From: Pirellulales bacterium
GTDB taxonomy: Bacteria > Planctomycetota > Planctomycetia > Pirellulales > Thermoguttaceae
Assembly (NCBI GenBank): GCA_016928165.1
Contig: JAFGLH010000128.1
Location: 1 to 64,000 of the forward strand
Direction of reading: 5' to 3'
Length of the DNA stretch: 64,000 bases
Shown: one piece after another, positions 13,545 through 52,543 of the stretch
Numbering within the stretch: the first letter of the stretch is position 1
Layout: the number at the start of each line of letters is the position of its first letter
Position numbers and translations under genes: made by a program
The notes under the pieces: generated by a model
The model's input: only the letters and a program-made list of their open reading frames with translations
What the model was told of the DNA's origin: nothing
Database searches by the model: none

Positions 13545-16500
13545 TCAGCAGTCGTTTGCTTGGCCCGTCGCAGCCATGCTTGGCTCCGCTTGGACCTTCC
13601 GATCGGAAACAAACCGCTCGAGCTCCTGGGCCATCACGTCGACGGCGTATCGAATCTGCTTTTCGGTGTGCGCCGCCGAAATAAAGTATCTCAGCCGGGC
13701 CGCGTTCTCTTCGACGGCCGGATGGATGATCGGCTGAACGTTCACGCCTCGCAAAAACATCGCCTTGGACAGTTGCAAGCAAAGAATCGAGTTGCCCAGG
13801 ATAACCGGCACCACCGGCGTGTCCTTGCTGCTGCCGGTGTTCAATCCGTTCCGTTTGGCCAGATCGAGGAACAGCCGCGAGTTTTCCCGCAGTTGCGAGA
13901 CCCGATCGGGTTCATTCCGCAACAGCCGCAACGAGGTCAGGGCCGCAGCGGCGGAAGCGGGCGGAATGGCCGCCGCGAAAACGAAGCCGGGCGCCGTGTA
14001 GCGAAGATAGTCGGCCAGCGCCTTGCAGCCGGCGATATAGCCGCCGCAACTTCCAATGCTTTTGCTCAACGTTCCCATCCATATATCGACGTCCTCGGCG
14101 GGAACGCCGAAGTGTTCGCCGATGCCGCGGCCCGTGGCGCCCAATATCCCCAAGGAATGCGCCTCGTCGATCATCAACAGGGCCTTGTGGCGCTTCTTTA
14201 ATTCGATGAACTTGGGCAACTCGGGGATGTCGCCGTCCATGCTGTAGACGCCCTCGATCGCCACCAATACGCGCCGGTATTCGTGGCGATACTGTTCGAG
14301 CAGCTTGTCGGCCGCCCGCCAATCGTTGTGTGGGAAAGGCCGTCGCCGCGCCCCGGAAAGAATGCAACCCTGCACGATGCTGTTGTGGGCCAGGGAATCG
14401 TGAAGGATCAAGTCGCCGGGGCCGAACATGTGGCCGATGACCGATTCGTTGGTGGCGTGGCCGCCGACAAAGGCAACGGTGTCCTCGGTCCCCAAAAAGC
14501 TCGATATTTCCCGCTCCAACTCGACGTGGATCAATTTCTGTCCGGAGACCACACGGCTTGCCGAAGCGCTGGTGCCGTAGCGGTCGATGGCCTCCTTTGC
14601 GGCTTGGTTGACCGCCGGATCGCCCGAGAAACCGAGGTAGTTGTAGCTGGAGAAATTGATGTATTGCTTGCCGCCGATGATCGTCGTGTCCCGCGCCGGT
14701 CCGTCGTGCGCCATGAAGAACGGGTTGCCCGTTCCCGTGGCTTCGAGCATGTCGAGGCTATCCCGCAGTCGAACGTATTCGGGGAACAGGTCGAAGCGAT
14801 GCGTTGGCTCGGGTATTTCTCCGTCGGCCGGCCGCGTGCTGGCCGGACGCGGCTCGATGCCTAGATACTTCTCCACGGCCGCGACGAGTTGCCGGGTGGT
14901 CTCCAGTTCGGGAAGCACTTCTTCGGGAAACCGCCCGCCAAACTTGTCTTCCAACGAGGCTAATATCTCCATCCTCTCCAAAGAATCCATACCGGTCTCG
15001 ACGATCGGCGAATCGAGCGTCATGCCGTCGGCGCGTTCCTTCGCCACGCGGCGGATTTCTTCAACCACAAGTTCGGTTAAACGGTGACCGGCCGGGATTT
15101 TTTCCACGACGGCGGGACGTTCGTCCTGAGGTTGGAACGACGGCTCTGTAGCAGAGGTGTCTTTTCGAGTTGTTTTTCGTTTTCGTGTTCCAGTGGGCGC
15201 CGAAGCGGCTAGTCTTCGCCCCTCGCCCCTCGCCCCTAGTCCCTCGCTCCCCAGCCCTCGTCCATCGTCAATCCAACGACCGACCACATTCAAGGTTTTG
15301 GCTAAGAACCCCTCGCGACAGGCGTGTCTCTGAATTTTTCCGCTGGATGTCTTGGGAATGCTGCCTGCTTTCAACAATAATATCTCGGCGGGAACCAACT
15401 CGTGTTCCACGGCCACGGCCCGTCGCACGGCGTCGAAGACTTCATCGAAGTTTGATCGTTTGTGCCGTTCGATTTCCTGAACAACGATAAGCCGCTCGAT
15501 GCTGTTCATTTCCACGACGAAGGCCGCTCCGCCGTCGAGGCGCAGCCGGGGGTGGCTCTGCTGTACGGAAAGCTCGATGTCTTGCGGATAGTAGTTCACT
15601 CCGCGGACGATAAGCAGGTCTTTTAGCCGGCCGGTTACGTAAAGTTCCCCGTCTCTAATGAATCCCAAGTCGCCTGTCCGCAGAAAAGGCCCCTCGCCAC
15701 TGTCGGCCAACCTGGCACGGAAAACCTGCTCGGTGGCTTTTTCTTGCATCCAATATCCCTGCGCGACGCTCGGACCTTGGACCCAAATCTCACCGATCCG
15801 ACCGGGCGAACAGGGGATTCGAGTCTCTGGATCGACGATTTCGATTCGCTGGTCGGGAAGGTTTTCACCGCAACCGACTAATTCCCTGCCGGCCGGATCG
15901 TCCGGTTCGACGGGGACCGCTTCGTTTCGGGAGAGCCCCTCGGCTTCGAAGGAATTGATTATCGGTTGCTTGTGGACGAACCCGCCGGAGACGATCAATG
16001 TTGCCTCGGCCAGTCCGAAGCATGGATAGAACGCTTCCCGGCGAAAACCGCAAGGGGCAAACACCTCGGCGAAAGTTTCGAGCGTTTCCGCCCGCACCGG
16101 CTCCGCCCCGTTGAAGGCCACACGCCAACTGCTCAAGTCAAGTTTTTTTCGTTGTTCAGACGTGACCTTGCGGATGCAGTGCTCGTAGGCGAAGTTCGGT
16201 CCTCCGCTGGTGCTGCCGCGATATTTGGTAATCGCCGCGAGCCAACGATACGGCTTCTGCAAAAAACTCATCGGGGAAATCAGCACGTTCGGCCGGCCGA
16301 CGTACAGCGGCTGAAGGATGCCCCCAATCAACCCCATGTCGTGGTAGCTGGGCAACCAAAACACGCCCGTGCCCGAGCGGGTATGCTCAAAGGAGTATGA
16401 AATCAGCGCAGAGTTGTGGACGAGGTTGGCATGGTTTAGCACTACCCCCTTCGGCGTGCCGGTCGAGCCGGAGGTATATTGTAAGAAAGCCAACGTATCG

Positions 16501-17006
16501 CCGTGGACGTCGGGCATTGTCCAATCGACGGCCGTCTCGGCCGAAACCCGACAAGTGGGCAGCCAGGCAAGCTGCTTGAGATGGGGGGTTTGGTCAATTA
16601 GGGGCATAACCCGGCTCAATACTGAATCGGTCGTCAGCGCCACCCGTGCCTCGGCGTCGTCGGCGATCGCCTGTATGCGATTCAGCGATCGGTTTCGGCG
16701 GGGGGGGTAGACGGGCACGGCGATCACGCCCGCGTAAAGGCACCCAAAAAAGGCGGCGATGAACTCCAGACCGGCCGGATAGAGCAACAAGGCCCGTTGC
16801 CCCACCAGATCGTGCGATTCGAGCCATGCGCCGATCGCCCGTGCCTGACGGTCGAGTTCCCTGTAAGTCAGAGAGATTTCTTCGTTCTCGCCGTCGACCA
16901 GGTACGTGAAGGCGATGTCAGTCGGCTGGCACCGCGCGCGATGCAGCAACAGTTCCACTAGGTTGGAAGGGCCGAAAAACGTCCCAGGCAAAGAATCCAG
17001 ATGCAC
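13545..17006 (-). CDS. Fatty acyl-AMP ligase - acyl carrier protein - alpha-oxoamine synthase (AONS/SPT-like PLP enzyme) fusion
   Basis: 1153 aa; FAAL motif [40 protein letters not shown]; PLP-enzyme motifs [17 protein letters not shown] and catalytic-Lys [16 protein letters not shown]. Confidence 0.88.
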   Translation of the reverse strand: [1153 protein letters not shown]

Positions 17007-43727: not shown

Positions 43728-45611
43728 TCAGCATTCTGTGTCGGGGAAAATCATCGCCTCGGCGAACTCGCGGGCGAAATCCGCGTCGGTGGAAAGGTCG
43801 ACGTGCTCAGCCCGTCGGGCAAGCTCCTCGGCCGCGTCGCGGGCGCGTCGCGAAAGCGCCGCAAGCCGCGCCCCGGAAAGCGAGGTGTTGCCCATGAAGC
43901 GGATGCGACTCCGCTCGACTTCCAGCGGCAGCAACCCGATCCTCTGCGCATTCCGTCGGCGGATGAAATTGCCAAACCCCCCACCGAGCAGCACCAGCTG
44001 TAAATCTTCCGGTCTCAAACCGGCGCGGCGCAGCAGAATCGAAATTCCGGCGCGGATCGCCCCGGCGGCGAGCTGCAATTCTCGTATGTCCCGTTGCGTC
44101 AGCGTGATCGGCCGTTGGTCGGCCGACTCTCCTTCATCGACAAGCAGGAACGAAACCTGGCCTTGATGCATAACGATTCTTCGGGCCATGTCGGGCAAAA
44201 CGTTCGATGGCAATTGATCGGGAGTTCGCAGCCTGCCGGCGCAATCGAGTGCCCCGTGGCGGAGCATTTCGGCCGCCGCGTCGATTAGACCCGAGCCGCA
44301 GATTCCCATTGGCGGGACGTCGCCGATGACGTTGATCATAAGGCGGCCGTTGAAGACGACTTTTTCGATGGCGCCCGCCCCGCCGCGCATTCCACGCGAG
44401 ATTCTCGCCCCCTCGAAAGCGGGGCCGGCGGCGGTCGAAGCGGCCGTCAGCTTGCCATCGGCCAGCAACACGATCTCGCCGTTAGTGCCGATGTCGACGA
44501 ACAAAGCGGCCCCCTCGACATTGGCCAAATCGGTGGCAAGCATTCCGGCAACGGTGTCGCCGCCGACAAACCCGCCGATCACAGGCATTACGTAAGCGCT
44601 TCCACGGGGATGAATGTGCAGTCCGAGTTTCTCCGCGGGGCAAGAAACGCCCCGGCCGCCGGCCGGCACGAAAGGGACCTCCCCCAACGGTCTGGGATCG
44701 ACGCCGCAGAACAATTGCTGCATGGTTGTGTTGCCGGCGAGGGACAACTCGTAGACCCTTTGACGCGGCACCCCGGCCTCGCCGCACAAGTCGCCGATCA
44801 TCTCGTCGACTGCCGATACGACCGACTGACGCAGACGAGCGAGTCCGTCCATTTTTTCACGGGCAAAGAGGATTCGCGAGAGGACGTCGTCGCCGACCTG
44901 GGTTTGAGGGTTTAGCCGGGCGGTCGTCGCCCACTCGCTGCCGGTGGCCAGGTCGGTCAACTGACCGGCTAGAGTCGTGGTGCCTAGATCCACAGCCACG
45001 GCAAAGGCATCGTCCTCGGTGTTGCCGATCTCGAAGTCGAGCAACCGCTCATCGTCGAAGACGGCGGTGCCGCGAAAGTCGGCCTCTCTGAGCCGGGCGG
45101 AAATTTCCCGCAGCAGCGATAAGCTCATAGTCAGCGGCCCGACGCCCAATGCACTCTCCAAACGGAGCGCATCGGGCACGTCGTCGCCGCGCGTGGGAGG
45201 AGCAAGTTCGACGTATTTTTTCCGCACGAGCGGATCGTCCCTAGTAAACGGTTCCAAACCCTTTTTTCCCCCTCTTCCTTGATAGCTGACGAGTATTTTC
45301 TGATCGAGCGTGGCATGCGAAGCCGAGGGGATTTCAATCTCCAGCGGACGTTGGACGGTCGATTGACAAGCCAACCGCCAGCCAGAGCGGAGTTCCTCAT
45401 CGGAAAACCACTTGCGTTCAACTGCGGTCGGATCGGAGGCGCCCGAGGCCACGATCAGCCGGCATTTTCCGCAAGTGCCCTCTCCGCCGCAAGGCAAGTC
45501 GATCATCAGCCCCGCCTCGGCCGCCGCTTCAACCAACCGTGTTCCGGGCAATACGAAAGCCTCTCGACCGGACGGCCGAAAACGTACCGATACTTCTCGA
45601 TCTCGCGTCAT
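43728..45611 (-). CDS. RACo-like [2Fe-2S]/ASKHA (DUF4445) corrinoid-activation type protein
   Basis: N-terminal plant-type ferredoxin CGGEGTCGKC...LACQS; AVAVDLGTTTLAGQLTDLATG; ELSLAGNTTMQQLFCGVDPRPLGEVPF; LFVDIGTNGEIVLL; GICGSGLIDAAAEM; VLLGGGFGNFIRRRNA. Confidence 0.88.
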   Translation of the reverse strand: MTRDREVSVRFRPSGREAFVLPGTRLVEAAAEAGLMIDLPCGGEGTCGKCRLIVASGASDPTAVERKWFSDEELRSGWRLACQSTVQRPLEIEIPSASHATLDQKILVSYQGRGGKKGLEPFTRDDPLVRKKYVELAPPTRGDDVPDALRLESALGVGPLTMSLSLLREISARLREADFRGTAVFDDERLLDFEIGNTEDDAFAVAVDLGTTTLAGQLTDLATGSEWATTARLNPQTQVGDDVLSRILFAREKMDGLARLRQSVVSAVDEMIGDLCGEAGVPRQRVYELSLAGNTTMQQLFCGVDPRPLGEVPFVPAGGRGVSCPAEKLGLHIHPRGSAYVMPVIGGFVGGDTVAGMLATDLANVEGAALFVDIGTNGEIVLLADGKLTAASTAAGPAFEGARISRGMRGGAGAIEKVVFNGRLMINVIGDVPPMGICGSGLIDAAAEMLRHGALDCAGRLRTPDQLPSNVLPDMARRIVMHQGQVSFLLVDEGESADQRPITLTQRDIRELQLAAGAIRAGISILLRRAGLRPEDLQLVLLGGGFGNFIRRRNAQRIGLLPLEVERSRIRFMGNTSLSGARLAALSRRARDAAEELARRAEHVDLSTDADFAREFAEAMIFPDTEC

Positions 45612-46724: not shown

Positions 46725-48077
46725 ATGAGCGACGATTGGTATTTGAAACGTCTGTCCGAGTATAGCGGCCGTACCGCTTTGGTATGGAGGGAAAAACAAT
46801 ACGGTTACGACGATTTCCTCGCTCGCGTCGATGGATGGCGTGATGAGCTTTCCGGGCGGGGAATTGCACCGGGACAGTGCGTCGCCTTGCGGGGCGGTTT
46901 TTCGCCCGCCACGGCCGCCTTGATGACTGCGTTGGCCGTCAATCGGAACGTCGCGGTTCCTTTGACGACTAGAGTGCGCGAGGAGCGCGAGAAGGCCCTA
47001 AAAATAGCCGCCGTCAGATGGTTCGTCGAATTCGATCGCGACGACGGGTGGGAAATCACGCCGCTCGAACCGATACTCGATCCGCCTCTGCTGTGGGAAC
47101 TCCGCGAAGCGGGAGAAGCTGGGTTGATCGTCTTTTCCTCCGGTTCGACCGGAGAGATAAAGGCGTCGCTGCTGAGTTTTACGCGGATGTTGGACGGCTA
47201 CCGCAACCGCCGGGCGACGCCGCTGCGGACGCTCGCTTTCCTGATGCTCGATCACGTCGGAGGTATCAACACGCTGTTTCATATTCTCATCGGCGGCGGA
47301 ACGATTATTACCATTGCCGAGCGGTCGCCCGAGGCCATCTGCAAAGGGATCGAGCGCCATCGAGTGCAACTGCTGCCTACCACGCCCACCTTCCTGCGGA
47401 TGTTGCTGATTTCCGAATCCCACAAGAAGTATGACCTCAGTTCATTGGAGGTAATAACCTACGGCACCGAGCCGATGCCCGAGGCGACGCTGAAAGAGCT
47501 TCATGCCGCCTTGCCCGGCGTGAGGTTGAAGCAGACTTATGGGCTGACAGAAGTGGGCATACTGCCGACGAAGTCCGAGAGAAACGATTCGCTATGGTTG
47601 GCCGTCGGCGGCAAGGGATTCGAGACGAAAATTGTTGACGGAGTTCTTTGGATCCGCTCGAAAACCGCGATGCTCGGCTACCTCAATGCCTCCTCGCCGT
47701 TCGACGCCGAGGGCTGGATGAACACCGGCGACCTGGTCGAGCGACAGGGCGATTATATCCGCTTCCTCGGCCGCAAGTCGGAGATCATCAACATCGGCGG
47801 CGAGAAGGTCTTTCCCGCCGAAGTTGAAAACGTGATCCTGCAACTGGACAATATCAAGGAGGTGACTGTCCGCGGCCGCTCGAACCCGATCACCGGCGGA
47901 GTGGTGGTTGCCACGGTCGAGTTACACCGGCCGGAGGATCACTCCGCGTTGGAGAAGCGAATCCGCGCCGCCTGCCGCGCGCGGTTGGCCCCGTTCAAAG
48001 TTCCGGCGATGGTCGTGGTGACCTCGGAGGCGCTTTGCGGAGAACGTTTCAAGAAAAAGAGAAAAGTTGGAATGTAA
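46725..48077 (+). CDS. ANL superfamily AMP-binding acyl-activating enzyme
   Basis: LIVFSSGSTGEIKASLLSFTRM; QTYGLTEVGILPT; EGWMNTGDLVERQGDYIRFLGRKSEIINIGGEKVFPAEVENVI; FKKKRKVGM C-terminus. Confidence 0.88.
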   Translation: MSDDWYLKRLSEYSGRTALVWREKQYGYDDFLARVDGWRDELSGRGIAPGQCVALRGGFSPATAALMTALAVNRNVAVPLTTRVREEREKALKIAAVRWFVEFDRDDGWEITPLEPILDPPLLWELREAGEAGLIVFSSGSTGEIKASLLSFTRMLDGYRNRRATPLRTLAFLMLDHVGGINTLFHILIGGGTIITIAERSPEAICKGIERHRVQLLPTTPTFLRMLLISESHKKYDLSSLEVITYGTEPMPEATLKELHAALPGVRLKQTYGLTEVGILPTKSERNDSLWLAVGGKGFETKIVDGVLWIRSKTAMLGYLNASSPFDAEGWMNTGDLVERQGDYIRFLGRKSEIINIGGEKVFPAEVENVILQLDNIKEVTVRGRSNPITGGVVVATVELHRPEDHSALEKRIRAACRARLAPFKVPAMVVVTSEALCGERFKKKRKVGM

Positions 48078-48146: not shown

Positions 48147-48902
48147 TTGATGAAAAACGAAATCCAAACCGCTCGACCCGTGGCCGTCGTCAGCGGCGGC
48201 AGCCGGGGACTGGGGCAGGCGATAGTAACCGAGTTGATGCTGCACGGCTTGACCGTGGCCACGTTCAGCCGCTCTAAGACGCCGTTCGTGGATGAACAAA
48301 CCGCGGCCGACCCGCAGGCCAAACGTTTCCGCTGGGAATCGCTCGACGGGGCCGACGCTCAGGCGTTGGCCGGCTTCGCCCGCGGAGTGCTGCAACGTTA
48401 CGGCCGGATCGACGCCTTGGTGAACAATATGGCAACGCTCGGCGACGGACTGTTGACGATGATGCGCGACGCCGACATCCACCGCCAAGTTAGCATGAAC
48501 CTCGAGTCGGCGATATTTCTCACGCGCGCCTGCCTGAAAGGAATGTTGCCGCAAGGATCCGGTTCGATCGTTAACATATCGTCGGTCAACGCGCTGCGGG
48601 GGCATAAAGGCGTGTCGATCTACAGCGCCACGAAGGCCGCCTTGATCGGGCTGACCAAGAGCCTGGCCGTCGAGGTCGGGCCGGCCGGCATCCGCGTCAA
48701 CTGCGTGGCCCCGGGCTATTTCTCCAGCGACATGACCGCCGCATTCACCGACGAGCAACGGGCGCGGATTGCCCGGCGCACGCCGTTGAAGAGGCTCGGC
48801 ACGGTCGAGGACATCGCCAAGGCGGTTTGGTTCCTCCTTTCGCCCGAGTCGTCCTTCATCACCGCGCAGGTAATCGCCGTGGACGGAGGATTTGTGGGAT
48901 AA
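48147..48902 (+). CDS. SDR family oxidoreductase (3-oxoacyl-ACP reductase-like)
   Basis: VAVVSGGSRGLGQAIV; NNMATLGDG; NISSVNALRGHKGVSIYSATKAALIGLTKSLAVEVGPAGIRVNCVAPGYF. Confidence 0.92.
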   Translation: MMKNEIQTARPVAVVSGGSRGLGQAIVTELMLHGLTVATFSRSKTPFVDEQTAADPQAKRFRWESLDGADAQALAGFARGVLQRYGRIDALVNNMATLGDGLLTMMRDADIHRQVSMNLESAIFLTRACLKGMLPQGSGSIVNISSVNALRGHKGVSIYSATKAALIGLTKSLAVEVGPAGIRVNCVAPGYFSSDMTAAFTDEQRARIARRTPLKRLGTVEDIAKAVWFLLSPESSFITAQVIAVDGGFVG

Positions 48903-48910
48903 ATTAAATG

Positions 48911-48987
48911 TAGGTCAGGTACCCCGTACCTGACATTGAACCGGAAATAAATCAAAATGCACGTCAGGTACGGGGTACCTGACCTAC
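48911..48987. repeat. REPIN-like pair of inverted hairpin modules (GTAGGTCAGGTAC family)
   Basis: GTAGGTCAGGTACCCCGTACCTGACAT ... CGTCAGGTACGGGGTACCTGACCTAC. Confidence 0.8.
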
Positions 48988-49004: not shown

Positions 49005-49370
49005 ATGGAAAACCTCAAAGAAAAAATCCTCGGCGTGGTCCTCGACGTGGCGCAAGAAAACTCGCCGCAACTAGAGGCCGTTCGCCCCGACCAAATGCTG
49101 GTCGAAGACCTCGGTCTGCGATCGCTCGATCTGGCCCGGATCGTCGCCAAGCTGGAAATGGTCCTGGGCGTCGACCCGTTCGCCGAATTGGTGGCGGTGA
49201 CGAGCATCCGCACGCCGGGCGACCTTATTGATGCGTACTCGAAGTGTTTTACCGGCGAAGGGGAATCGGCCGAGGGGTCGGAGTCGGAATCCGAAGGCGC
49301 GTCCGCTCCGCGTCAAAGGAGCGGACTGGCCTCTCAACGTGATTTAAGAAAACAATCGCGCGGAGAATAA
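49005..49370 (+). CDS. Acyl carrier protein
   Basis: MENLKEKILGVVLDVAQENSPQLEAVRPDQMLVEDLGLRSLDLARIVAKLEMVLGVDPF; candidate phosphopantetheine Ser in GLRSLDL. Confidence 0.82.
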   Translation: MENLKEKILGVVLDVAQENSPQLEAVRPDQMLVEDLGLRSLDLARIVAKLEMVLGVDPFAELVAVTSIRTPGDLIDAYSKCFTGEGESAEGSESESEGASAPRQRSGLASQRDLRKQSRGE

Positions 49371-49387
49371 TCGACGAGACCAACCGC

Positions 49388-52300
49388 ATGAACGACTCAA
49401 TTATATCCAACTCGATCGCCATTATCGGCATGGCCGGACGTTTTCCGGGCGCCCGGAACGTCGATCAGTTTTGGTCGAATGTTGTCGCGGGAGTCGAGTC
49501 GATCACGTCGCTGACGAACGAAGAAATGCTGCAATCCGGGGCCGATCCGTCGTGGCTAAACCGGCCCGACTTCGTCAAGGCGGCCCCGGTGATCGACGAT
49601 TTCGACAAGTTCGATCCGAAGTTCTTCAAAATTTCCCGCCGCGAAGCGGAGATCATGGACCCGCAGCAGCGGATCCTGCTCGAACTGGCCTGGGAGACGA
49701 TGGAGCGGGCCGGATACGCCGGCGATCCACCCGGCTTGGTTGGCGTCTTCACCGGCGCAGGCGGATTGATGAGCAGCTATCTGCTTTCGCCCATGCACTT
49801 TTACTCGCGGTTGATCGGCTCGACTGGCAGCATGCACTGCGCGGGCAACGACAAGGATTATTTGAGCACGCGGATTTCCTACAAGCTGAACCTCCGCGGG
49901 CCGAGCTTTACCGTTCAATCGGCCTGCTCGACCTCGCTGGTGACGGTGCATCTGGCTTGTCAAAGCCTACTGGCCGGCGAGTGCGACATGGCCCTGGCAG
50001 GCGGCGTGACGGTCCGCGTTCCGCACCGGATCGGCTACATCCACACGGGCCAGGCGTTGCTCTCGCCCGACGGCCATTGTCGCCCCTTCGACGCCGGCGC
50101 CAACGGTACCGTCTTCGGCAGCGGCGCCGGTCTGGTGTTGCTCAAGCCGCTGGCCCAGGCGATCAAAGACGGCGACCACGTTCACGCAGTCATCCGCGGC
50201 TCGGCCGTAAACAACGACGGCGCCGCCAAGCTGAGCTATTGGGCCACCAACGCCGAGGGCCAGGCAGCCGCTTGCGCCGACGCAATGGCCGTGGCCGAGG
50301 TCGAGCCGCGCTCGATCGGATTAGTCGAAGCACACGGGACCGCCACCGCCATGGGCGATCCGGTGGAAATCTTCGGATTGAACAAAGCCTTCCGCCGTGG
50401 AACGAAGGATAAGCAGTTCTGCGCCATCGGCTCGGTCAAAAGCAACTTCGGACACCTGGAGGCCGCCGCCGGAATTGCCAGCCTGATAAAGGCCGCGCTG
50501 GCCCTGGAACACAAAAAGTTGCCGCCGAGCATCAATTACCACGAGTCTAATCCGGCGATCAATTTCCCCGAGTCGCCCTTTTTCGTCATTACGGAGTGCC
50601 GCGATTGGCCCTCGAACGGCCAACCGCGCCGAGCGGCGGTCAATTCCCTGGGGATCGGCGGCACGAACGCGCACGTGATTTTGGAAGAAAAGTTATTTTC
50701 CCCTCTCCCGCAAGCGGGAGAGGGGCCGGGAGTGAGGGCGGCTGAACTCAAAACGATTTCCACATTACATTCCCACGCTCTCGCCATTTCCGCCCAGACG
50801 CCGACGGCGTTGAACGAACTGGCCGGCCGATACGTTGAATACTTCGACGCTAATCCCAATTCCAACCTGGGCGACGTCTGCTTTACGACTAACACTGGTC
50901 GGGGACGCTTCCAACATCGTTTATCCGCCGTCGTCCGGTCGACGAACGAAGCCCGCAAATTCCTGGACGCTTGGCGGCAAGACAAGTCCGCCCCGGGCTG
51001 CGTCCATGGAATCGTCGATGTGATAAATCCGCCTGTCACGTTCCTGTTCCCCGGCGAAGGTTCGCAATACGCCGGCATGGGACGGGGACTATACGAGTCC
51101 GAACCCGTCTTCCGCGAAAACATCGACCGCTGCGGAACAATCCTTAAATCCTCTCCATTGGAGGGCGAAGCGGATTTCCAGACGGCCCTGTTTGCCTTGG
51201 AATACTCTCTGGCCTGCTTGTGGAAATCGTGGGGCGTAGAGCCGGCGGCGGTCATCGGTCACGGGTTGGGCGAGTACGCGGCCGCCACCGTCGCTGGCGT
51301 GTTCTCGCTCGAAGACGCCCTGCGATTGGTCTCCGCCAGGGAAAAACTGATCAACTCGCTTCTAAACGAGGGCAGAATGGCGGTTGTGTTGGCCGAGCCG
51401 GCCCGAGTGGCTGAAATGTTGAAGTCCTACGACGACATTTATCTCGCGGCCGTCAATAGTCCGCGGCAAACGGTCGTTTCGGGCCGCGCTGAGGCGATTG
51501 AATCACTTACCGACCATTTGACCGCCGAAGGGCTTCGCTGCCGGCTGCTGCCGGGCAAAAGAGCATTGTACTGCCCGTTGGTCGAGCCGATCGTCGAACG
51601 ATTCCGCTGCGTTTGCGAGAAAGTAACGTTCCACAAACCGCGGATTGAGATAATCTCGGGTCTTTCCGGGAGCCAGGCCGGCGCGGAGATCGCCACGGCG
51701 GATTACTGGCACAGGCATCTTTGCAAACTGATCCGTTTCGCCGAGTGCGTAGCAACGCTCGATCAATCTGACCACCGCGTTTTCGTTGAGATCGGTCCCC
51801 GGCCGTTATTGTTGGGGCTTGGCCGCCGCTCAATGCGGCAATGGGAAGGGTTGTGGTTGCCGAGCCTCAAACCGGGGCAACCGGACCGGCGGACGATGCT
51901 CTCCGCCGCGGCGCGGCTCTTCGTGCGGGGCATAAACATGAATTGGGCCGGAGCGGACCGCGGATTCGCCCGACGGCGGATTGTTCTGCCCACTTATCCT
52001 TTCCAACGCAAAAAATATTGGATCGAACCGATGTCAGTCATTAAACAAGAACTTAAAGGTGAAGTCCGCGTCCTTACGATCGAACCCGCTCGATTAGTTG
52101 ACTCGGAAACTATCGACCAGTGCTACCGCGAAATCGCCGCCGCGCTGGACAAATGCGAGGAAAACCACGTCGTGTTGAACTTTAGCCGGGTCGGCTTCAT
52201 GTCCTCGATGGCGCTGGGGATGTTGGTACGGGTAAACAAGCGGTGCAAGGAGTACAAGGTATCGCTTAAACTCAGCGGCATCGCCTCGGAAATCCGCGAG

Positions 52301-52432
52301 GTGTTCAAGATCACCGGCATGGACAAGCTGTTCGAGATCCATTCCGACGCGGAAGCGGCCATTGCCTCGCTGAAGTCGGGCGGAGGGATGTTCTTCCGCA
52401 AGAAGAAGCCCGCCAGCTACGAAGTCTCTTAG
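49388..52432 (+). CDS. Type I PKS-like protein: ketosynthase - degenerate acyltransferase - C-terminal STAS domain
   Basis: KS SACSTSLVTVH, VEAHGTATAMGDPVEI, GSVKSNFGHLEAAAG; AT-like FLFPGEGSQYAGMGRGLY, VIGHGLGEYAAATVAGVFSLEDAL; STAS-like KCEENHVVLNFSRVGFMSSMALGMLVRVNKRCKEYKVSLKLSGIASEIREVFKITGMDKLFEIHSD. Confidence 0.9.
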   Translation: MNDSIISNSIAIIGMAGRFPGARNVDQFWSNVVAGVESITSLTNEEMLQSGADPSWLNRPDFVKAAPVIDDFDKFDPKFFKISRREAEIMDPQQRILLELAWETMERAGYAGDPPGLVGVFTGAGGLMSSYLLSPMHFYSRLIGSTGSMHCAGNDKDYLSTRISYKLNLRGPSFTVQSACSTSLVTVHLACQSLLAGECDMALAGGVTVRVPHRIGYIHTGQALLSPDGHCRPFDAGANGTVFGSGAGLVLLKPLAQAIKDGDHVHAVIRGSAVNNDGAAKLSYWATNAEGQAAACADAMAVAEVEPRSIGLVEAHGTATAMGDPVEIFGLNKAFRRGTKDKQFCAIGSVKSNFGHLEAAAGIASLIKAALALEHKKLPPSINYHESNPAINFPESPFFVITECRDWPSNGQPRRAAVNSLGIGGTNAHVILEEKLFSPLPQAGEGPGVRAAELKTISTLHSHALAISAQTPTALNELAGRYVEYFDANPNSNLGDVCFTTNTGRGRFQHRLSAVVRSTNEARKFLDAWRQDKSAPGCVHGIVDVINPPVTFLFPGEGSQYAGMGRGLYESEPVFRENIDRCGTILKSSPLEGEADFQTALFALEYSLACLWKSWGVEPAAVIGHGLGEYAAATVAGVFSLEDALRLVSAREKLINSLLNEGRMAVVLAEPARVAEMLKSYDDIYLAAVNSPRQTVVSGRAEAIESLTDHLTAEGLRCRLLPGKRALYCPLVEPIVERFRCVCEKVTFHKPRIEIISGLSGSQAGAEIATADYWHRHLCKLIRFAECVATLDQSDHRVFVEIGPRPLLLGLGRRSMRQWEGLWLPSLKPGQPDRRTMLSAAARLFVRGINMNWAGADRGFARRRIVLPTYPFQRKKYWIEPMSVIKQELKGEVRVLTIEPARLVDSETIDQCYREIAAALDKCEENHVVLNFSRVGFMSSMALGMLVRVNKRCKEYKVSLKLSGIASEIREVFKITGMDKLFEIHSDAEAAIASLKSGGGMFFRKKKPASYEVS
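50700..50725. repeat. CCCCTCTCCCGCAAGCGGGAGAGGGG hairpin repeat inside the PKS CDS
   Basis: Translates in frame as (F)SPLPQAGEGPGVRA; related intergenic copy at 26475-26500. Confidence 0.85.
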
Positions 52433-52543
52433 GTAGGTCAGGTACTCTGTACCTGACATTCTATTACCACGATTTGGGTCATGTATGGGGTGGTTGTATA
52501 ACCGTTACCTCAACTGCTGTCAGGCACGGAGTGCCTGACCTAC
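52433..52543. repeat. REPIN-like pair of inverted hairpin modules (GTAGGTCAGGTAC family), second copy
   Basis: GTAGGTCAGGTACTCTGTACCTGACAT (52433-52459) and TGTCAGGCACGGAGTGCCTGACCTAC (52518-52543). Confidence 0.8.

Follow-up and report, generated by a model that had tools for sequence, protein, structure and literature searches.

A STAS domain fused in frame to a ketosynthase with a predicted dead acyltransferase in Pirellulales: a conserved candidate for signalling control of a condensing enzyme

The window, a 64,000-nucleotide stretch of a Pirellulales draft genome (G000; assembly GCA_016928165.1, contig JAFGLH010000128.1), encodes a protein in which a ketosynthase (KS), an acyltransferase-like (AT) domain predicted to be catalytically dead and a C-terminal STAS domain are joined in one chain (Table 1). 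To judge from the sequences compared, this KS-AT-STAS architecture, carried by a few uncultured planctomycetes, is real, conserved and rare. The gene is the last of an operon that also encodes an acyl ligase, a ketoreductase (KR) and an acyl carrier protein (ACP), and its STAS domain apparently derived, a single time, from a standalone STAS protein of a kind associated with a serine phosphatase. This suggests that signalling may directly control a biosynthetic enzyme, and the reading that we tentatively prefer is that of a putative phospho-switch STAS tethered to a condensing enzyme.

Table 1. Operon genes and fusion-protein domains in the window (all coordinates are window positions)
Feature	Position	Strand	Characteristics and basis
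AMP-forming acyl ligase, first gene of the operon	46725..48077	+	Pfam AMP-binding 2.3e-32
SDR ketoreductase, FabG-like (YSATK)	48150..48902	+	3oxo_ACP_reduc 2.4e-61
Discrete ACP	49005..49370	+	LRSLDL phosphopantetheine site, basic C-terminal tail; PP-binding 19.3 bits, slightly below cut-off 20.8
KS - AT (predicted dead) - STAS fusion protein	49388..52432	+	1014 aa
Ketosynthase domain, aa 8-435	49409..50692	+	Pfam 5.5e-70 and 4.5e-40
Acyltransferase-like domain, aa 551-850, predicted catalytically dead	51038..51937	+	Pfam AT position; motif columns
STAS domain, aa 882-1014	52031..52429	+	Ser939-Ser940 (FMSSMALG from 52196), tail SYEV; profiles, alignment, fold

The original prediction held that a STAS domain follows the KS-AT portion in frame at 52031-52432, and it is borne out by correct coordinates, by matches to Pfam and TIGR00377 and by the finding of the same fusion in four genomes. 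The open reading frame runs free of stop codons from the post-AT motif LPTYPFQRKKYWIEP straight into the STAS start MSVIKQELKGEV, and Pfam places the domains at aa 8-384 (KS), 551-850 (AT) and 890-990 (STAS). At 60% GC, chance would leave a frame of 133 codons open in about 1% of cases; the extension is regarded as genuine because homologous fusions exist, rather than on such frame-length odds. The in-frame junction recurs in G001 and G002, which belong to the same genus as G000, and in G068, from another genus of the same family, with whole-protein identities to the window fusion of 76-77% (G001 and G002) and 66% (G068). Two outcomes had been named as fatal to the claim. The first, a sequencing or assembly error that conceals a stop codon, is refuted by the identical junction in four separate assemblies from two genera, which leaves it a practically negligible probability and rules out the fusion as an artefact. 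The second, homologues encoded as two separate genes, fails as well, as four genomes carry the fused form and no KS gene adjoins any of the standalone STAS orthologues that were inspected.

The search for KS-STAS fusions across Planctomycetota that had been proposed yielded the three further cases just described and no others among the matches listed, from 397 genomes of the order (searched with the STAS profile and the full protein) and 392 genomes of the phylum (full protein), a design that might have passed over a distant fusion. G256, G286, G332, G352, G391 and G774 have short KS-AT frames, which were considered and rejected because they carry other ends and no STAS. The literature searched held nothing relevant on a STAS domain joined to a ketosynthase or polyketide synthase (PKS).

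The two enzyme domains have fared differently. The KS active-site Cys and both His residues are intact in all four fused proteins (motif columns ACS, EAHGT and NFGH), and the catalytic Ser and His of the AT are lost in every one of them, both being kept in 15 of 15 KS-AT comparators. In the window GHSxG has become GHGLG (51257), xxFH has become ALY (51563) and GQGSQ has become GEGSQ; GHGLG and ALY are the window-genus state, and G068 reads GKDAG and has a deletion of about 110 residues. On these motif columns the AT domain is predicted to be dead in all four fusions, a state that the original prediction overlooked. Set beside a cis-AT module, the protein thus has intact KS residues, no active AT and an ACP that is encoded by a separate gene instead of lying on the same chain; the single other acyltransferase of each fused genome is FabD-size and located elsewhere. 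Between G000 and G001, dN/dS is 0.085 for the KS, 0.205 for the AT and 0.20 for the STAS; fused STAS domains give about 0.15-0.26 between diverged genomes, and the value of 0.49 for the STAS core between the near-identical G001 and G002 rests on very few changes. All three domains are therefore under purifying selection, and the AT appears to persist as a structure or fold with its enzyme function gone.

One would perhaps see in such a protein a decaying PKS, what is left of a broken reducing synthase, its KS fragment attached to a neighbour by accident and in the course of being lost. The loss of the AT, its shortening in G068 and a KS-AT linker that varies in length and sequence among window-genus genomes are what decay might leave behind, but the KS motifs are intact, KS and STAS are under purifying selection and the four-gene operon has been kept in two genera, so that this explanation is very improbable. 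The linker itself (aa 435-465, about 50690-50782) is genome-specific, reading FSPLPQAGEGPGVRAAE in G000, NVAQPPSAVQSCPRQPGAA in G001 and another sequence in G002, and these variants have the look of in-frame repeat insertions at roughly one and the same site.

The gene order ligase, KR, ACP and KS-AT-STAS is complete in G001 and G068, and the contig of G002 stops beyond the ACP gene. Ligase orthologues are 82% (G001) and 73% (G068) identical to that of the window, and 54% identical in the operon of G056, a member of another family of the order; the corresponding KR values are 82%, 70% and 59%. The listed KR frame begins at TTG 48147, immediately ahead of ATG 48150. For the ACP, whose listed frame begins at 48957, the start at 49005 (MENLKE) is matched by the G068 homologue (MDNLNE), and identity amounts to 61-70% with the ACPs of G068, G002 and G001 and to 45% with that of G056. 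The upstream LysR and RACo-type genes are placed outside the operon because neither G001 nor G068 retains them. Downstream, an ECF sigma factor and a FecR-like gene are common to G001 and G002 and absent at the G068 locus.

Several other features of the window and of related loci may be recorded here. The upstream RACo/AcsV-like gene (43728-45611, minus strand) would encode a corrinoid activator, and the standalone STAS gene of G034 (L035 3899-6668) adjoins genes that resemble, by eye, a corrinoid methyltransferase and a formate-tetrahydrofolate ligase; a common one-carbon context is possible, and may be coincidence. A second carrier-dependent system lies some 30 kb away from the operon: one protein (13545-17006, minus strand) that combines AMP-binding, carrier and class I/II aminotransferase domains. 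Paired palindromes of the form GTCAGGTAC...GTACCTGAC lie right after the fusion stop (52433-52543) and between the KR and ACP genes (48914-48983); such pairs occupy four places in the window, where the expected number is none, and they look like a REP-like mobile repeat.

The origin of the enzyme part is illuminated by the G056 operon, in which ligase, KR and ACP genes precede a gene for a 2642-aa protein with a KS 58% identical to that of the window. Its AT is a 33-bit remnant reading GAGHGE, followed by DH, ER, KR and three carrier domains, with no STAS. Beyond its tandem carriers the same protein (L148 6283-14208) has a C-terminal stretch, roughly 250 residues long and without a Pfam match, that looks by eye like a GNAT acetyltransferase. 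From this one outgroup we infer the direction of change, by which the STAS would have come to occupy the place of the PKS reducing part in the window lineage. Death of the AT is probably older than the gain of the STAS, and since G056 has a dead AT without a STAS, the latter was probably not acquired to replace the AT, which weakens the idea of the STAS as an AT substitute.

As for the STAS domain, it matches Pfam PF01740 with E = 3.3e-15 and 56.2 bits (cut-off 22.6) and NCBIfam TIGR00377, the anti-sigma factor antagonist family, with 53.8 bits (cut-off 53.45). The top matches by sequence and by fold are SpoIIAA, TM1442 and RsbV, several of the structures being kinase-bound; the structure model of the domain has a pLDDT of 84 and reaches TM values up to 0.85 by target length, and the fold model of the full-length protein has a pLDDT of 34. 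Ser940 (query Ser59) aligns with the phospho-Ser of SpoIIAA at the N-terminus of helix 2, a position occupied by Ala in chain u16153 (1tid/1til), which we take to be the S58A mutant. The residue before the putative phospho-Ser is Ser here and Asp in SpoIIAA. No transporter family is found among the profile matches of the fusion protein, and it lacks an SLC26/SulP transmembrane domain.

Standalone proteins 54-59% identical to this STAS occur in four relatives (G014, G028, G034 and G067). They begin at the residue that matches Met 52031 and end with a SYEV-like tail, so that the alignment of the fused with the standalone forms runs over the whole length, Met1 to tail, with FMSS invariant in all eight sequences. 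In the tree the fused domains form one clade (100/98) nested within a clade of standalone STAS proteins (98/95), which is consistent with a single derivation of the fused form. In the genomes with a fusion no standalone member of the subfamily was seen.

The company kept by the standalone proteins is informative. In G028 a PAS-SpoIIE phosphatase gene lies downstream of the standalone STAS on the same strand, and in G067 a similar one is arranged tail to tail with it. When the eight genomes with this STAS were compared with 111 genomes of the family without it, the phosphatase was present in 6/8 and 6/111, respectively (p = 7e-6); counted by genus, which is the only level at which kinship was handled, the figures are 5/6 and 6/34 (p = 0.004). 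It has been kept in three of the four fused genomes (G001, G002 and G068), unlinked from the fusion, and was not found in G000, whose draft is 88.5% complete. In Bacillus subtilis, RsbP, a PAS-PP2C protein, dephosphorylates RsbV (PMC7522486). In the PAS domain of the phosphatase (L034 3830-4975, minus strand, and orthologues) a Cys/His cluster, CHxDKDGHxLCGEEFCPLH and similar, is conserved; it is possibly a metal-binding site that serves as the sensor.

The original prediction had linked polyketide or lipid synthesis to signalling or to lipid binding. Signalling is the part favoured by the SpoIIAA/RsbV structures, the invariant Ser and the PAS-PP2C genes that adjoin standalone orthologues, and lipid binding found no support. 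Phosphorylation, the kinase, the effect on catalysis and the product are what we infer on the preferred reading, a possible one on balance, in which a phospho-switch STAS is tethered to the condensing enzyme. In this scheme an acid would be attached by the ligase to the discrete ACP and condensed by the KS with malonyl-ACP, which the FabD-size protein, the single other acyltransferase in the cell, would provide; reduction of the product would fall to the FabG-like enzyme. Ser940 would be phosphorylated by an RsbW-type serine kinase and freed of its phosphate by the RsbP-like PAS-PP2C phosphatase, and binding of the kinase or another partner by the STAS would let a signal of redox or energy status reach the condensing enzyme; alternatively, the fusion enzyme might work against the kinase as a tethered antagonist. 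The weakest link in this scheme is the kinase: an RsbW-type kinase is present in all four fused genomes, but the clear RsbW of each adjoins its own RsbV, G028, with its STAS-phosphatase pair, has no strong RsbW match, and neither a kinase nor a phosphatase gene lies beside the fusion. A more specific version, in which the STAS phospho-state sets KS activity or assembly while the enzyme competes with RsbV for RsbW, thereby coupling lipid or polyketide flux to sigma control, is rather doubtful. For the preferred reading as such, action of a STAS switch below the level of transcription has a precedent in SypA (PMC10120452).

It is also conceivable, if on the unlikely side, that the STAS keeps its ancestral signalling role and that the fusion is an incidental result of stop loss, the KS being a mere carrier, perhaps with free STAS made from the ATG at 52031. 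The STAS is whole from Met1 to tail and seemingly the sole member of its subfamily in the fused genomes, the phosphatase has been retained in three of the four, and all four fused proteins retain the Met of the old start, at which the standalone orthologues begin. The original prediction was right to remark that this ATG has no obvious Shine-Dalgarno sequence; the point carries little weight because the KS and ACP starts of the operon likewise have no clear one. A comparison of the junction codons of the four species, however, revealed no conserved ribosome-binding site before 52031, only codons forced by the YW motif. Moreover, the KS is under strong selection (dN/dS 0.09) and the fused state extends across two genera at 66-77% whole-protein identity; such selection and so long-lasting a union suggest that the KS-STAS link is useful.

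A useful link might instead be structural, the STAS serving as a docking module that brings the discrete ACP or the KR to the KS. In work of 2010 by Babu, the STAS domain of the transporter YchM was reportedly solved in complex with ACP. This YchM STAS-ACP work is cited in passages of PMC8602292 and PMC6147952. Docking would also fit the fact that the reducing and carrier domains of the G056 PKS are missing here, with the STAS at their position. Yet the sequence relatives, taken up to E = 0.1, included no YchM or transporter STAS, the ancestry is that of a phosphatase-linked STAS, and the STAS-free dead AT of G056 is a further point against such a role, which we hold to be improbable.

STAS proteins of partner-switching systems have mostly been described as free-standing sigma-factor regulators. 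If the tethered phospho-switch is the right reading, the conserved covalent KS-STAS link offers a testable case of partner switching at a metabolic enzyme, together with a defined construct, KS-STAS with S940A or S940D, for asking whether Ser phosphorylation of an attached domain can control a condensing enzyme. It is at the same time a natural example of a synthase without AT activity and without its reducing part that gained a signalling domain.

With SpoIIAA and RsbV the window STAS shares the fold, a Ser at the phosphorylation position and the association with a SpoIIE-type phosphatase; unlike them it is C-terminal in a 1014-aa enzyme, has Ser in place of Asp and has no adjoining kinase gene. 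The pairing of RsbV with the PAS-PP2C RsbP in the SigB cascade is paralleled by the standalone orthologues, which likewise adjoin a PAS-SpoIIE phosphatase, whereas in the fused genomes the phosphatase is unlinked from the fusion, and the draft genome of the window yielded none. The reducing type I PKS of G056 (KS-deadAT-DH-ER-KR-ACPx3) has in common with the window the operon order, the 58% identical KS and the AT remnant, but at the position of the window's STAS it bears DH-ER-KR and three ACPs. AT-less (trans-AT) PKSs also combine a KS lacking a working cis AT with an AT remnant; the window operon differs from them in having no dedicated trans-AT gene, a FabD-size AT being encoded only elsewhere in the genome. 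Finally, Anabaena all4160, mentioned in PMC8256260 as a STAS-glycosyltransferase fusion, is likewise a STAS joined to a biosynthetic enzyme, but one of a different class and with the STAS at the N-terminus.
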